NCBI GenBank assembly: GCA_001600635.1
Contig: BCKL01000001.1
Span: forward strand, 1,663,216-1,727,215
Direction: 5' to 3'
Origin: Leucosporidium creatinivorum
Taxonomy: Eukaryota; Basidiomycota; Microbotryomycetes; Leucosporidiales; Leucosporidiaceae
DNA length: 64,000 bases
Every line of letters starts with the position of its first letter. Within the stretch, counting starts at the first letter, position 1. Of the stretch, positions 3,055-54,223 are shown piece by piece. The translations under genes were made by a program, and so were the position numbers. Under the pieces are notes generated by a model that saw only the letters and a list, made by a program, of their open reading frames with translations, searched no databases and was not told the origin of the DNA.

Positions 3055-3663
3055 AAAAGAGTAGTCTCAGAGTAACCCTGAGAGACGCTCGCCTCGAGTT
3101 ATGTCGGTCTCGCGCAGAAAGAACGACTTTCAGCCAACACCGAGCATTGTTCAGAAGAACTTGCGCTTCTGTGATGCTGTTGCGAAGCTCTACGGCGGCT
3201 TGATCCACCTGGGCGCTCACAGACCCCTTAGTTAATGATCTCGAGGTACTCAAGGCAAGGGGAAGAGCGGCAGAGAGATTGGCTCGGACTGCTTCCTCTC
3301 GGTCGAAGCCATGCTGCATCAAATCAGCTTCTAGAGCTCTCTTGGCTCATGCGATAAGCCTGAAGCATTGTGATTGAGTGCAGTATCGCCCAAAAACCTC
3401 TCAACCATCTGTATCTCGACAAGGAAGATGGCGGTAGACGAAGACAAGGGGGAAAGGAGGAGGCGCTGCTGTTTCAAAGTGCGGCTTGCGGAGTTGCTAC
3501 AGCTTTGGAAGACCTGAAGGATGCTGTTCGAGCAGTAGCGCCCTACAGAGCAGCAGTGATACACTCCCTCGGCGAGAGAAGGGCGCTCAGCTTCTCCGCT
3601 TTGCAGCTCTCCTTCCTCCCACTCACTCGTTGCTCAGCTCGCTTCTCGTTTCGTTCGCTCAGG
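3055..3663. other. intergenic stretch upstream of the F-box-type gene
   Basis: Open frames occur on both strands but none has a recognisable domain. The frame of the downstream gene stays open upstream to 3370; I treat that part as leader, because the bases before ATG 3664 are CT-rich and the F-box homology begins after it. Confidence 0.35.
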
Positions 3664-19937: not shown

Positions 19938-21291
19938 TTAGTCGAGCTCAATCACCTCGGGCTTGCCCTTCTTGCCTCCCGAGTTCGATCCGCTGCCTCC
20001 ACTCGAGCTGCTCTTGTCCTTCTTGATCTTCTGCAAGCTCGACTCATTCTCCTCCTTGACTTTGACGCCCGGCTCGACCTTGACGCGCTCTCGCTCGGCG
20101 ATCTCCAACTCGGCAACTCGGGCGCGAAGACGCTCCAGCTCGGTGAGCCCATCGTCCTTGTCGTCTGACTCGATGGTAATCCTGATGGGGCGCTTGTTCT
20201 TGTTCTTGTTGTTCTCGGAAGCGGGAGGTGCTTTGATGGGAGGAGGAGGAGAGTCTCGGGCGGCGATGATGGGAGGAGCGGGGGCAGGAGCGGGGGAAGC
20301 TGTAGCAAAGGTCTCAGCTACGGCCGACACCAGCGAGAAGACAGGAACGCACCAGGAGCATGTCCTTCGAGCTCGAGAAGGGCTGTCGAGGCGAAGGCGA
20401 GTCAGCTCAAGTCATCGCCGAGATCCGACTCGACTCGAAAACTGACCTCGCGAGCGGTAGCGGAACTCAAACGCGCAGTACGGGCTACTCGACGAGTCAA
20501 TCTCAGTGCATGTCAATGGCTTGCGCTGCTCGTGAGTCCTCAGCGGCCCCAGACTGTTGGTAGGAGAACTTAGCGAGGCTCGGCGCTCACGAGGGATACG
20601 CCACTTGCCTGGTTTGATGACTGAGTTGAGCCTTCTTTGTCTGCTCGTGAAGTACATGATCCGGGAACTCCCTGCTTCCTATAAGGTCCACGTCTCTGCG
20701 GACATCCTTGACGCGATAAATCCTGAGCTGAATCGTTCCCATCGACTTGATGACCTCCTCATCGTTGCAAGCAAGATCCTCGTTGTCGGTGAGAAGGAGC
20801 TTGGAGAACAGGAAGGGGCGCTCTGAGGTCGAGCTGATCTTGGCAGAACTCAAGGTGTCGATGCGACTTGGACTGTCGAGCGGCTCGGTGAAAGTGGAAG
20901 AGGTTCGGCGATAGGCGAGGCCTTGAACCCTGCGGGACGGATGAACGACCACATTAGCAGAGCTCTGTAAGGGTATATACACTACCCACCAGCGTCCATC
21001 CAGGTAAGCCTGAGCGATGTAGTCGTTGGCGGGTGGCTGCTCGCGTCCTTCGCGGTACTTGATCTCAAAGTGCGCTCCTTCGACGGCTTCAATGTATCCA
21101 GAGCTCTTGCTACCATCGACTTGAGCTGAGTAGACGCTGAGGGGCGTGCCATCGACCGTGACCCAAGCCTCGCAGCCGGGAAGCAGTGGAGAGGTCCTGG
21201 CGTCGAGCGAGAGCGCATGAGCAGCAGCTCGCAAGGAGAGCTCGATAGTGTAGAGGGCTCACAGCGTGGTGGGAGAAGCTTGCTGAGGCAT
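19938..21291 (-). CDS. DUF7918-family protein, copy 1 (full length, SUMO-motif tail)
   Basis: Six exons on the minus strand: 21291-21263, 21196-20990, 20929-20609, 20553-20447, 20382-20353, 20299-19938; 351 residues. The first 220 or so follow the fungal DUF7918 pattern: CEAWVTVDGTPLSVYS, a glycine-rich strand GYIEAVEGAHFEIKY, LDGRW, RPFLFSKLLLTDNE, IGT-type strand GTIQLRIYRV, HEQTKKAQLSHQTR, FEFRYRSR and the closing LLELEGHAP. DUF7918 is known in basidiomycetes but has no assigned function. The tail has a Pro/Ala linker, RITIESDDKDD, a coiled coil (LTELERLRARVAELE), psi-K-x-E sites VKVE and VKEE, and ends EVIELD, a SUMO-interaction-type motif. The third intron begins GC (GCAAGT), while copy 2 has GT there. 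Confidence 0.72.
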
Positions 21292-22964
21292 CTTTGAGAG
21301 CCGGCGAGACGAGCGAAAGAAGACGAAGAGAGGTGGGAGAGGGAGAGCCGCTCGAGTTCGCAACGCGCTAAGGCTGGAGTGATTTGACGAGTATCGGGCA
21401 GAGACATCTGAACGCTGCGTGAGGATCTGATGCATCTCAGAGATGTGCGTTGGCCTTCCTCGGCGCTCCTAAGGAAGCCTAATCTGCAGCACGAAGCTTC
21501 CTGCCTCCTCGCCGAGCTCGACTGTAGCTGTATGAAGGGAACTGGTATTACGCTGAGGGTCGCTGGAGGTCACAGTAGGTTTTTGTATCTGCTCAGGAGC
21601 TCTCTCAGTCCATTACGACCTCATCGGAAGGCAAACGAGGCGCCGAAGCGTGCGCCGAGCATCGGCGGCGAGGACGTCAAGCTGCCGCTCTTCGCGTAAC
21701 GCTCGCGAGGGCTTGAAACTGCCAGGGAAGGTAGCTATATCAGTATCAAAGCTACCCCTATGGTCGCGAACACCGCGGAATCCCTTGCTGCACCTCGAGA
21801 GCGGCTGAGCTAAAACGGGGGTCCGAGCGTCAAGCCAAGACGAGCTCGCCTGTAGCTCAGCTGCAGTTCAGTTTCGCCTCTTTCCCTCCTACCACATCTT
21901 GCTCAACTCTCGACCAGCGCTCTAGCTCTCATGACGAGGTGCGTGCGACTGTCCTACAGCGTTAAAGTGCTTCTCCTCCCCTCCCTACTCCCCTTCCCCT
22001 TTCCCCCTCCGTCTAGCTCTCCTTGCATCGTACCTACACTAGACACATAGCACTACTATTACCCCCTCATCACACACCTGTCCTCCCTCGCCACACGCCT
22101 CCCTCTCAGTCAACCCGAGCACGAACGCCTGCCTATCGAAGGAGGCCGACTGCTCTACCCTCGTCCTCGAGCTAGGCCACGGTCAGTGTCGCGCGGCTAT
22201 GTTTTCAGGCAGCCTCAGTGCGTAAGCCCGGCCTCTTCCCCCACCCCGCTAGCTCACCAAAGAGGACAGGGCGTCAGACCGGCTGGGGGATGAGAATCGA
22301 GTGGAGCCCGAGGAGTCGCCGAGCCGAGCTTGACAGCATCTGTAGCTGCTCAGGTTTGGTTTGGTTGAGGAAGCAGGTCTTGTTTAGCTTCTTTGTCTTA
22401 GCTTACTACCAGCGCCGCAAGGCTCTCCAAACGACTGGGCGGCTCACTTCGGTGAGTCGCCCGCAGAAACCGGTCGCCGAAACAGGGTGAGCCCATGAAG
22501 TCCCCCATGAAGTCCGTCGTGAGGGCTATCTCTTGCTTGAGAGCTGTAGGGCGGTAGTAAAGACTACATATCGCATTCATGGCTCTCATCGGCTCGCTTT
22601 GAGCTTCTAGCGAGGTCGAGAGAGCCCTACAGCGGGAGTTGACCAGCGTCGGCTCGCTCGTGCTCGGCGCACCTTTCGTCTCGTCCACAGCACGACAGAG
22701 CTCTCTGAGCTAGTAGCTACACGACACGCAGACCTCGGTCGATGCCATACAGTGCTTGAGCAGCAGCCTTTGAGCGAACATGACGCCAGATCTCGCGGCC
22801 AGTCGCATCAAGCGAGTGGAGAAAGCCCTTCTCCGAGCACGCTGCCGAGAAGGGCACAGCAAGGATTGCACAACTGGGGAGTCAGGAGTCAAAGCGGTCA
22901 GTAGAGATTCGCGAGCGAAAAAGGAGAAGCTCAACTCACCAACTACAAGGTTACAGCGACCGCC
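21292..22964. other. noncoding spacer containing a duplicated block
   Basis: About 21705-22964 is copied at about 51600-52853, in both cases immediately downstream (on the minus strand) of a DUF7918 gene. Most of the block differs at roughly one base in ten by eye, but 22096-22424 is identical in the two copies. Frames in the block carry stops in at least one copy. An open frame at 22218-22490 is preserved only because the DNA is identical. Confidence 0.6.
22096..22424. repeat. 329-base identical segment, copy 1
   Basis: It is base-for-base identical with 51997-52325, 30 kb away, while the flanks are clearly diverged. Content is mixed, with no tRNA-like or rRNA-like structure that I can see. 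Confidence 0.9.
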
Positions 22965-23817
22965 TCAATCAAGCTCGATGACCTCCGGCTTGGCCTTCCC
23001 TGCCCTCGGGCTCGAAGACGCTGCCCCACTCGACCCACTCTGCTCCATTTTGACCCTCTTCAGACTCGGCTTCTTCTCCTCCTTGACCTGAACTGTTCCA
23101 GCCTCGACCTTGACCGCTCGCTCGGCCCTCAACTGAGCGTTCTCGGCTCGGAGGCGCTCCAGCTCGGTCATGTCGCCCTCGTCGTCGTCCGAGTCGATGG
23201 TGATCTCGATGGCGCGTTTCTTCCCCTTGGCGTTCTCGGAGACGGGAGCTTGCTGAGCCATGGCGGCGGGTGGGTCCTCGGCGGCGGGAGCGGGAGGAGG
23301 TGTAGGGACGGGGAGTGCTGTATCACGGAGGTCAGCGCGACGGGGAGGTGGAGAGACTAATAGAGCTCACCAGGAGCGTGTCCTTCGATCTCGAGGAGAG
23401 CTGTACGGAGTGAGCGAGTCAGCTTCACTCATCGCCGACTTTCGAGGTCGGCCTACCTCTTGAGCGGTAGCGGAACTCGAAAGTGCAGAAGGGGTCATCA
23501 GACGAATCGAGTACGAAGTTCGTAGAGCGGCGCTTCGCCTCCTTCACGAAGCGCTCAGGGCCGAGACTGCGGGAAGAAGTCAACTCGCCGACCTCTCGCC
23601 GAGCCGCCGAGCTCTTGTCGTACCTTGTCTGATGGCTTAGTTGCGCCTTCTTCGTCTGCTCGTGCAAGACGACGTCCGGGACATCTCGATAGCGCGCGTC
23701 CGTACCCTCCCCCTTCGGAGACGTGCTAGCACGCGTCGTGGCATCAGCAGCGGCTCAGCAGAGGCGAGGAACAGTGAAGAGTGCTCACAGCTCCGTAGGA
23801 GGATTTGTTTGCGCCAT
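22965..23817 (-). CDS. DUF7918-family protein, copy 2 (core deleted in frame)
   Basis: Five exons on the minus strand: 23817-23789, 23725-23624, 23566-23457, 23400-23371, 23317-22965; 207 residues. Exon 1 (MAQTNPPTEL) and the following LTSP match copy 1, but the next residues jump to the region just before HEQTKKAQLSHQTR. Most of the first two thirds of the DUF7918 domain (about 110 residues of copy 1) is missing, yet the frame and all splice sites survive. The tail is complete: Pro/Ala linker, GKKRA basic patch, IEITIDSDDDEGD, coiled coil LTELERLRAENAQLRAE-like, psi-K-x-E sites VKVE, VKEE and VKME, and the terminal EVIELD. It could act as a tail-only variant of the family, or be decaying slowly. 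Confidence 0.6.
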
Positions 23818-51345: not shown

Positions 51346-52853
51346 CCGAGACTGTGTGTGACGTCGACGGAGCCATTCATACGCTGTTCAAGGTGAAGTC
51401 GACGCTTCGCCGAGATGCTCCGCCGGCCCGACTGTGCTTTACACAGGCTTTCACTCAACTACAGTGCTACCCAAGGGTATGCAGTGACTTATCAAAAGCG
51501 GCTATTCGATCTCGAGGGGCTCTTGAAGGCCATTGAGCGATATCGCAGAGCAGCTGGTCCTTCGGGTCCGTTATCCGGCCGCCTCTCCTCGCACACGGTT
51601 TGTGAAGGCTTGAAACTGCCAGGGGAGGTGGATGTAGTACTACTGAAGCTATTATTATGCTCAAGAACACCGCAGAAGCCATTGCTGCACCTCGAAAGCG
51701 GCTTGAGCTAAGACGGGGGTCCGAGCGTTAAGCCAAGACGAGCTCGCCTGTAGCTCAGCTGCAGCTCGCTTTCGCCTCTTTCTCTCTTACCACATCTTGC
51801 CCAACTCTCGAACAGCGCTCTAGCTCTTATGACGAGGTATGTACGACTGTCCTACAGCTTTATCGTGCTCCTCCCCTCCCCTGCCTACTCCCCCTCCCCT
51901 TCTTCCCTCCGTCTAGCTCTCCTCGCATCGTACCTACACTAGACATATAGCTCCACTAGTAACCCCCTCATCACACACCTGCCCTCCCTCGCCACGCGCC
52001 TCCCTCTCAGTCAACCCGAGCACGAACGCCTGCCTATCGAAGGAGGCCGACTGCTCTACCCTCGTCCTCGAGCTAGGCCACGGTCAGTGTCGCGCGGCTA
52101 TGTTTTCAGGCAGCCTCAGTGCGTAAGCCCGGCCTCTTCCCCCACCCCGCTAGCTCACCAAAGAGGACAGGGCGTCAGACCGGCTGGGGGATGAGAATCG
52201 AGTGGAGCCCGAGGAGTCGCCGAGCCGAGCTTGACAGCATCTGTAGCTGCTCAGGTTTGGTTTGGTTGAGGAAGCAGGTCTTGTTTAGCTTCTTTGTCTT
52301 AGCTTACTACCAGCGCCGCAAGGCTACCAAACACCTGGGCGGCTCACTTCGGTGAGTCGCCCGCAGAAATCGGTCGCCGAAACAGGGTGAGCCCATGAAG
52401 TCCGTCGCGAGGGCTAGTCCTCGAATGAGGGCTGTAGGGCGGTAGTGAAGACTATATACCACATCTCTAGATCTCTTTGCCTCGCTCCGAGCTTCTAGCG
52501 AGGTCGACAGAGCCCTATGGCGGGAGTTGACCAGCGTCGGCTCGCTCGTGCTCGGCGCACCTTTCGTCTCCTCCACAGCACGACAGAGCTCTCTGAGCTA
52601 GCAGCTACACGACACGCAGACCTCGGTCGATGCCATACAGTTCTTGAGCAGCGGCCTTTGAGCGAACATGACGCCAGATCTCGCGGCCAGTCGCATCAAG
52701 CGAGTGGAGAGAGCCCTTCGCCGAAGCACGCTGCCGAAGAAAGAGAAGGGCACAGCAAGGATTGCACAACTGGGGAGTCAAAGCGGTCAGTAGGGATTCG
52801 CGAGCGAAAAAGGAGAAGCTCAACTTACCAAGTAAAGGACTACAGCGACCGCC
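51346..52853. other. spacer containing the second copy of the duplicated block
   Basis: About 51600-52853 matches 21705-22964, again immediately downstream of a DUF7918 gene on the minus strand. The first 250 bases after the ATP2 fragment are not shared. No gene is supported. Confidence 0.6.
51997..52325. repeat. 329-base identical segment, copy 2
   Basis: Every base is identical with 22096-22424, while the flanking parts of the same duplicated block carry substitutions and small gaps. Confidence 0.9.
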
Positions 52854-54223
52854 TCAATCCAGCTCGATGACCTCCAACTTGACTTTCCTTCCCCTTGGGC
52901 TCGAAGACACTGCCCCACTCGACCCACCCTGCTCCATCTTGACCCTCTTCAAGCTCGGCTTCTCCTCCTCCTTCACTTGAACCGCTCCAGGCTCGGCCTT
53001 GGCCTGAACTGCTGCGGCTTCGACCTTAACCGCTCGCTCGGCCCTCAGCTGGGCGACCTCGGCGCGGAGGCGCTTGAGCTCGGACATTTCGTTCTCCTCC
53101 TCGTCCGAGTCAATGGTGATGTCGATGGCGCGCTTCTTTCCTGTGACTTTTGTTGCTTTTGATGAAGCGGTAGGTTGCTGAGCGTCAGAGGCGGGGGGTT
53201 CCTCGTCGGCGACGGCGAGATGTGGCGTAGGGGCGGGGAGCGCTGCAAAGCCCCGGTCAGCAGATACAGATCTAAGAGAAACAAAAAGAACTCACCAGGA
53301 GCGTATCCCTCGAGCTCGAGAAGGGCTGTCGTGAGGGAACGAGTTAGCTTGAGTCATCGCCGAGCTTCGCAATCGACCCACCTCTTGAGCGATAGCGGAA
53401 CTCGAAGGTCCAGAAGGGGCTCTCCGGTGGGTCCAAGTAGTTACATGCAGAGTAGGGCTGCCCTACGCGATCCCTTGCCTGTCCCAGTCTGCGAAGAAAG
53501 CAGTCAGCTCGGTCGTTCCGATGACTCGTCTCAGCGAACGTTGCTGACCTCGTTTGGTGGCTGAGTCGCGCCTTCTTTGACGTTTCATGCAGCACAAGGT
53601 CCGATAGACCTGTGTACTCGTCTTAGACCTTCTTTCGCCATAGTTGTCTGGTGATACGAGCGACTTTACACTGGATGCTGCCAACCTCGGCGATGATCCG
53701 CTCGTCCTTGCAGCTGAGCTCCTCATCTTCGGTCAAGGCCAGCTTGGAAAAGACGAAGGGCCGTTCTGCTGTCATGCTTGTACGAGCAGCACTGAAGCTC
53801 AACACGCGTTGAAGGCTGTCTGGCGCGAGCGAGACGAGGAGTGAGGATGCGCTTGTCGAGGCCCGCATCCTGCAAGATCGGATGAGCGGGACAGGGCAGA
53901 GCATCACATAAAATATGACTGACCAGCGTCCGTCGAGGTGGAGGGTAACGGCGTAATCGTGAGCAGGACCTGCCCCACAACTCCCGTCTCGATAATGCAC
54001 CTTGAAACGTGCTCCTTCGACGGCCTCGATGTAGCCAATGCTCTTTTTCTCTTCTGCCGTAGCCGAGTAGACTGGTAGTGGCTTGTCGTCGACCGTAACC
54101 CAGGCAGAGCAGCCCGGCATTCGAGTTGAGGTTCTGAGAACGAGAGAGAATCAGCAGCAGCTCTGGAGAGGCGAGAACAACGGAAAGGGCTCACAGCTCA
54201 GAAGGAGGATCCGGTTGTGCCAT
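52854..54223 (-). pseudogene. DUF7918-family copy 3, interrupted by an in-frame stop
   Basis: Six exons on the minus strand: 54223-54195, 54133-53924, 53869-53549, 53488-53382, 53325-53296, 53242-52854. The layout is the same as in copy 1, and the sum is a multiple of three (362 codons). The DUF7918 parts are present (CSAWVTVDDKPLPVYS, GYIEAVEGARFKVHY, LDGRW, RPFVFSKLALTEDE, LHETSKKARLSHQTR, FEFRYRSR, LLELEGYAP). However, a TAA at 53623-53625 falls between the last beta strands, in a segment where copy 1 is open. No intron can remove it. Downstream the frame and splice sites remain intact to the tail: IDITIDSDEEENE, coiled coil, VKVE, VKEE and VKME sites, and terminal EVIELD. It is either a young pseudogene or encodes a truncated protein. 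Confidence 0.65.

Follow-up and report, generated by a model that had tools for sequence, protein, structure and literature searches.

DUF7918 Paralogues of Leucosporidium creatinivorum Share a C-terminal Exon That Combines Candidate SUMO-acceptor Sites with a SUMO-interaction-type End

The 64,000-nucleotide stretch of Leucosporidium creatinivorum contig BCKL01000001.1 between positions 1,663,216 and 1,727,215 (hereafter the window; G+C content 59.5%) includes three copies of a gene for a protein with the DUF7918 domain, and related copies are located elsewhere in the genome. The last exon of these genes specifies a tail that lies outside the DUF7918 profile and in which psi-K-x-E sites that resemble SUMO acceptors precede a hydrophobic and acidic terminus with the form of a SUMO-interaction motif (SIM). 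The motifs and their conservation within the family make it reasonably probable that the exon encodes a disordered nuclear tail which is SUMO-conjugated with the help of its own terminal SIM, in a manner akin to DAXX. No papers on DUF7918 or PF25534, and no role for the domain, were found in open-licence PubMed Central (PMC); the conserved tail with motifs of SUMO-acceptor and SUMO-binding type provides a concrete first testable hypothesis for the family.

The DUF7918 Gene Family

The genome that was scanned comprises 27.7 Mb in 63 contigs. The Pfam model for DUF7918 (PF25534; curated cut-off of 27 bits) produced 24 matches which were assigned to 15 copies, a number that is a lower bound. The copies in the window are denoted w1, w2, and w3 (copies 1, 2, and 3) and those elsewhere A–K and M. 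Nine copies (w1–w3 and A–F) are clustered within 1.607–1.776 Mb of contig 1, with A, B, and C in locus L034, D and E in L035, and F in L036. Outside the cluster are G (contig 1, 1.49 Mb), H (contig 3), I and J (contig 10), and K and M (contig 37). Gene models were drawn from exon borders common to the copies, and splicing is predicted. Clean spliced models outside the window were obtained for A, C, E, and G; modelling of D, H, I, J, K, and M was partial at most. DUF7918 was the sole Pfam family above the cut-off in the spliced copies. Weak matches of tails or whole proteins to PB2_627-dom, ExbD, EF-1_beta_acid, Docking, and Med21 fell far below the cut-off and were dismissed as effects of composition.

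Tail Architecture and Candidate Acceptor Sites

The last exon of the eight cluster tails (w1–w3, A, B, C, E, and F) spans ~115–129 codons and possesses elements in a fixed order: a Pro-rich linker, an acidic patch, a leucine coil identified by eye, sites 1, 2, and 3, a linker, and the terminus [EVQ][VMI]I[EV]LD-stop. The acidic patch conforms to I-x-I-[DEN]-S-[DS] in seven of these tails and reads YISSSDD in C. The motifs that the first-pass annotation had noted in copies 1–3 were located where it had placed them, on the minus strand, with its outer coordinates corresponding to ATG and stop positions. Of the psi-K-x-E sites that it had listed, copies 2 and 3 carry VKVE, VKEE, and VKME, and copy 1 carries VKVE and VKEE; the third site of copy 1 is IKKD which is not strictly psi-K-x-E. 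The acidic I-x-I-D/E-S-D-D motif that it had listed is present as TIESDD, TIDSDD, or TIDSDE, but is conserved no better than the linkers: values for the ratio of nonsynonymous to synonymous divergence (pN/pS) at the patch were 0.80 across all pairs of the eight tails and 1.05 in a set of five lineages (w1, A, C, E, and F).

The abundance of candidate acceptor sites was assessed in 12 tails, with D, I, and J scored apart owing to the absence of a SIM-type end. These 12 tails, as paralogues, are not independent; they contain 27 psi-K-x-[ED] sites, compared to 4.5 on average and 14 at most in 20,000 shuffles of the same composition. Taken one tail at a time, the excess did not reach significance in B, G, K, or M. 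The motif does not occur in seven DUF7918 cores (66 lysines; the core of w2 is partial) vs. 18 occurrences in six tails (76 lysines). D, I, and J have one, three, and five sites, respectively. A codon alignment of the eight cluster tails, likewise non-independent paralogues of one genome, provided 23 instances of the three sites; C is without site 1 and site 2 of F was placed by hand. The psi position is V, I, L, or F in every instance, the lysine is retained in 23/23, and the glutamate in 21/23 with one further aspartate. The commonest residue at x occurs in 4/7 tails at site 1, 7/8 at site 2, and 3/8 at site 3, and the positions that flank the sites agree in 2–7 of 7–8 tails. The first-pass annotation had asked if the psi-K-x-E lysines and the VIEL residues were conserved beyond their neighbors. 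This test, applied to the paralogues, did not refute the idea: the lysine and glutamate persist, the residue at x differs between tails at two of the three sites, and EVIELD is the slowest segment of the tail (see below).

These data bear on an alternative, a minor but real possibility, in which the terminus is a SIM and the psi-K-x-E motifs arise incidentally from a Lys/Glu-rich region that harbors a nuclear localization signal (NLS), in which case the proteins would read SUMO but be unconjugated. The placement of site 3 in a basic stretch (LKRVK, KKIKK) is in keeping with a by-product, as are copy G, which ends with IIVIDD and has no psi-K-x-E, copy K in which the single site is within the coil, and the observation that the end is the sole element with clearly low pN/pS in the five lineages. 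However, both the excess of sites over shuffles of the same composition with none in seven cores, and the retention of K and E at two of three sites where x and the flanking residues change, argue against this alternative.

Conservation of the Hydrophobic C-terminal End

The EVIELD segment showed the lowest pN of 107 overlapping six-codon windows in the eight tails (pN 0.10, pS 0.63). The PVPTPP window ranked second, followed by KEEKKP, KRVKME, and VKEEKK in third to fifth positions. The pN/pS value for EVIELD was 0.16 across all pairs and 0.18 in the five lineages where, as noted above, no other element was clearly low, with the coil (0.43) low to a degree. The remaining values for all pairs were 1.10, 0.40, and 0.60 for sites 1, 2, and 3, 0.45 for the coil, and 0.78 and 0.73 for the linkers. 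Chance or shared descent among duplicates too recent to have diverged much, with pseudogenes among them, is highly improbable as the sole basis for this pattern. Although w2 and w3 share a 1.86-kb block with 85% identity and a proximal 3′ flank with 93–95% identity, the frame is broken in B, D, F, and K, and w3 has an in-frame TAA, the pS of 0.63 at EVIELD over all pairs reveals that synonymous sites had time to change, and the same kind of end is found in divergent copies on other contigs.

A SIM core is present within the last ten residues of 11 of the 12 tails; the exception is B in which MIEL fails the strict pattern. Counted over the family, a terminal SIM core (hhxh or hxhh with an acidic flank, where h is hydrophobic) occurs in 11 of 15 copies, including w3, F, and K which have upstream stops or frame breaks. 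As a rough background, a SIM core falls within the final ten residues of 20 of 272 open reading frame (ORF) ends, mostly from ORFs that are not genes. A narrower pattern of core plus a D/E/S end matched three of the 272 ends, one of which is copy 1 itself, and this pattern was written post hoc from the family. The divergent tails outside the cluster do not align by eye. Nevertheless, G ends with KKRKIDGSSIIVIDD (core IIVIDD), H with KGQKIVLEVD preceded upstream by VITIDSDSD and two IKxE sites, K with EVVIVDSDSD, and M with KVKVEKRAMEVLVLD (core VLVLD). The hydrophobic-acidic end recurs on other contigs in tails that otherwise are unalignable, and this recurrence, with basic NLS-like stretches close by, is the strongest argument for a function of the end. 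The PxVxL chromoshadow motif was rejected as an identity for the end as the spacing in PEVIEL is a misfit.

An RNA-dependent RNA Polymerase Gene with the Same End

A genome-wide search for VIELD-stop gave seven pattern matches of which one reads TGG. The sequence thus is coded six times, in five DUF7918 copies and at position 257564 of contig 2. A backward control pattern had one match in some frame. The contig 2 match (L047:1501–2526, minus strand) is a 341-aa open frame that terminates with KEQEVIELD and matches the RNA-dependent RNA polymerase (RdRP) of the RNAi type (PF05183, 70.3 bits). Its EVIELD end comprises the same six residues as in DUF7918 copies 1–3 and E and offers a lead towards nuclear RNA silencing.

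That the only other VIELD-stop gene is an RdRP would suit an improbable alternative in which the terminus, shared by DUF7918 proteins and the RdRP, forms a strand that engages a nuclear protein different from SUMO, and the remainder of the tail consists of an NLS and the acidic patch. The only conserved features of the terminus are the hydrophobic core and the acidic residues that follow it, and other partners that bind by strand addition could use these. However, the lone RdRP match may be due to chance, given that the backward control also produced one match. Moreover, the termini fit the hhxh/hxhh plus acidic description of SIMs (PMC8616421), VVIVDSDSD of copy K is close to IIVLSDSD of DAXX, and the sites that accompany the terminus are SUMO-type.

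Profile matches in the genome included one zf-MIZ (MIZ-type SUMO E3) and 14 Rad60-SLD. Five of the latter were viewed by eye: four are ubiquitin-like and one has a Rad60-type end, with no SUMO gene pinned among these five.

Variation among the Tails

Several observations weigh against conjugation of the tail aided by its own SIM. The SIM and psi-K-x-E consensuses are loose, and SUMO binding and conjugation are predictions from these sequences. The terminal SIM is absent in D, I, and J. G is without psi-K-x-E and the only such site in K is MKAE inside the coil, so that the acceptor part is less universal than the hydrophobic end. Site 1 is missing from C, the corresponding sequences in B are MIEL and VKVK, and the hand placement of site 2 in F also calls for caution. 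Across the five lineages, whole acceptor windows did not evolve clearly more slowly than the linkers (0.96, 0.61, and 1.18 vs. 0.77–0.82). As AAG and GAG codons carry little synonymous signal, pN/pS is a weak measure at these sites, but the values still are counted as a caution. The whole tail (pN/pS 0.68) also was not slower than the core (0.58) in four copies. A strict SIM core is present at the acidic patch in only 2 of 12 tails (A, VDII; H, VITI), and the patch was rejected on this basis as a second classical SIM. Finally, some family members may be in decay: D has an in-frame TAG in the core (L035:4890–4892), K an in-frame TAG in the coil (L041:3403–3405), B a frameshift where the tail begins (L034, about 3470–3478), and F a frameshift in the core (L036, about 2855). 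These frame breaks, in 4 of 15 copies, may denote either decayed genes or assembly errors.

Gene Structures and Flanking Sequences in the Window

The features of the three window copies are collated in Table 1. The first-pass designation of all three as DUF7918 paralogues applies to differing extents. Copy 1, when spliced, encodes a complete DUF7918 protein (107.8 bits; profile positions 1–226 of 228) with introns of 53–66 nt, one of which is GC-AG (intron 3). The GC donor of this intron (GCAAGT; intron at 20554–20608) is GT in the seven other modelled copies (w2, w3, A, B, C, E, and G). Copy 2 matches only profile positions 170–226 (37.4 bits): positions 1–169 of 228 are gone, whereas exon 1, the end of the domain, and the complete tail are kept. 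The acceptor for the exon 1/2 junction of copy 2 was our choice. Copy 3 has an in-frame TAA (53623–53625) in the core between two open frames, and is intact only if this codon is removed in a 48-nt candidate intron (GTATCA...ACACAG); the other introns in clean models are 51–74 nt. This spliced reading scores 89.2 bits for DUF7918. An extra VKLE overlaps the chain end in copy 3.

Spliced copy 1 had no match to the PDB in phmmer searches up to E 10. Searches of viral and prokaryote collections for relatives of the DUF7918 core exons gave 34 pattern stretches on viral contigs and 108 on genome contigs, none of which was confirmed. AlphaFold predictions for the core exons of copies 1 and 3, in which the two input sequences had intron 2 read in frame and were missing the last domain exon, had a mean predicted local distance difference test score of 41.6 which is too poor for a fold search.

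The 1.86-kb block common to copies 2 and 3 is not uniform: identity in the proximal 3′ flank exceeds that of the tail exon (81%) and is 88% further out. As the flank is more similar than the tail exon, it probably was converted or inserted later. Several DUF7918 copies are followed on the 3′ side by a dispersed repeat of ~0.8–1.2 kb (21681–22964 and near 51578–52853 in the window), which adjoins copies 2, 3, E, and A. This repeat recurs at many places in 208–400 kb of contig 16, on contigs 14 and 63, and as short pieces on contig 22. Its clustering along 200 kb of contig 16 might point to a repeat-rich or centromere-like region there. Two similar-looking genes adjoin repeat copies on contig 16 (L054:4036–5448 and L057:3996–4841). 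The former has a Rad60-SLD (SUMO-like) domain (33.2 bits), and the latter piece had no Pfam match at E 0.01 although a Rad60-SLD match lies close to it in the genome-wide scan. The proximity of the Rad60-SLD gene to the repeat probably is coincidental, and the idea that the 3′ repeat is functionally tied to SUMO-like genes was dropped as the contig 16 repeat copies adjoin varied genes.

Table 1. Positions of DUF7918 gene features in the window (position 1 is the first nucleotide of the window).
Feature	Position	Strand	Basis
Copy 1 (w1), DUF7918 gene, 351 aa, six exons	19938..21291	-	shared exon borders
Copy 1 exons	21263-21291, 20990-21196, 20609-20929, 20447-20553, 20353-20382, 19938-20299	-	
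Copy 1 tail exon, from Pro-rich linker to SG linker and EVIELD	19941..20297	-	translation and mapping
Copy 1 acidic patch RITIESDD	20160-20183	-	
Copy 1 coil, leucine-rich (by eye)	20088-20144	-	
Copy 1 VKVE	20073-20084	-	
Copy 1 VKEE	20049-20060	-	
Copy 1 IKKD	20016-20027	-	
Copy 1 EVIELD	19941-19958	-	
Copy 2 (w2), 207 aa	22965..23817	-	shared exon borders
Copy 2 exons	23789-23817, 23624-23725, 23457-23566, 23371-23400, 22965-23317	-	
Copy 2 tail exon	22968..23315	-	translation and mapping
Copy 2 acidic patch EITIDSDD	23184-23207	-	
Copy 2 coil	23118-23168	-	
Copy 2 VKVE	23103-23114	-	
Copy 2 VKEE	23076-23087	-	
Copy 2 LKRVKME (holds VKME)	23043-23063	-	
Copy 2 EVIELD (of EVIELD-stop)	22968-22985	-	
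Copy 2 3′ flank with dispersed repeat	21681..22964	.	
Copy 3 (w3), 345 aa only with 48-nt intron removing in-frame TAA; otherwise disrupted	52854..54223	-	
Copy 3 tail exon	52857..53240	-	translation and mapping
Copy 3 acidic patch DITIDSDEE	53097-53123	-	
Copy 3 coil	53034-53084	-	
Copy 3 VKVE	53019-53030	-	
Copy 3 VKEE	52965-52976	-	
Copy 3 LKRVKME (holds VKME)	52932-52952	-	
Copy 3 EVIELD (of EVIELD-stop)	52857-52874	-	

Discussion

The arrangement of the tail suggests how SUMO conjugation might proceed. The two or three psi-K-x-E lysines beside basic NLS-like stretches would be the acceptor sites, and the terminal hydrophobic SIM (VIEL-D, IIVI-DD, VVIV-DSDSD, or VLVL-D) would hold either SUMO or SUMO-charged Ubc9, thereby favoring conjugation in cis ~20–50 residues upstream of the end. 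The conjugated DUF7918 protein could then be retained in SUMO-rich nuclear complexes. The coil may dimerize the tail; a possible role of the acidic patch is that of a CK2-type site. The first-pass annotation had proposed that the proteins are SUMO-conjugated, SUMO-reading adaptors: the conservation of the motifs favors the SUMO element of that proposal, but nothing was found in favor of an adaptor function. Paralogous tails with graded loss of sites (w1, B, C, and G) form a natural set with which the co-operation of acceptor and SIM in cis can be addressed.

A broader scenario, quite improbable as it stands, is that DUF7918 constitutes a fungal class of SUMO scaffold in which the core would act as a folded nuclear domain that bears a portable SUMO tail with an acceptor cluster and terminal SIM. 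The EVIELD end of the RdRP would then mark a single SUMO-rich silencing assembly, and copy 2, as a near stand-alone tail, could compete with full-length copies.

The first-pass annotation was aware of no described system of this kind. However, SIM-aided SUMO substrates have been described: a SIM raises SUMOylation of the same chain in DAXX, TDG, USP25, BLM, and yeast Srs2 (PMC12751080). Thus, chains that combine acceptor sites with a SIM are of a known kind, and a link with DUF7918 was not found in print in open-licence PMC. The SIM consensus consists of four residues, hhxh or hxhh, with an acidic or phosphoserine flank (PMC8616421). The C-terminal SIM of DAXX (IIVLSDSD), which is required for placement of the protein in PML bodies (PMC6418139), resembles the DUF7918 termini in its hydrophobic core followed by acidic or phospho-acidic residues at the C-terminus and, as is predicted for the DUF7918 tail, in assistance of the acceptor by the protein's own SIM. 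The resemblance is closest for VVIVDSDSD at the end of copy K. In contrast, activity of the DUF7918 tail is a prediction, and no kinship of the folded parts with DAXX was seen, as only DUF7918 exceeded the Pfam cut-off and copy 1 had no PDB match. ZNF451 provides a further parallel, in that a short peptide with SIMs enhances SUMOylation of the chain to which it is attached, but its two SIMs and PLRP spacer make it an E3 (PMC12630355). PLRP was found in none of the 12 DUF7918 tails, most of which have a SIM core at the end only, and no E3 activity is claimed for them. TDG, USP25, BLM, and Srs2 (PMC12751080) likewise unite a SUMO acceptor and a SIM in one chain, whereas DUF7918 genes assemble up to three candidate sites and a terminal SIM-type sequence in a single exon of ~120 codons, an arrangement that is repeated family-wide.

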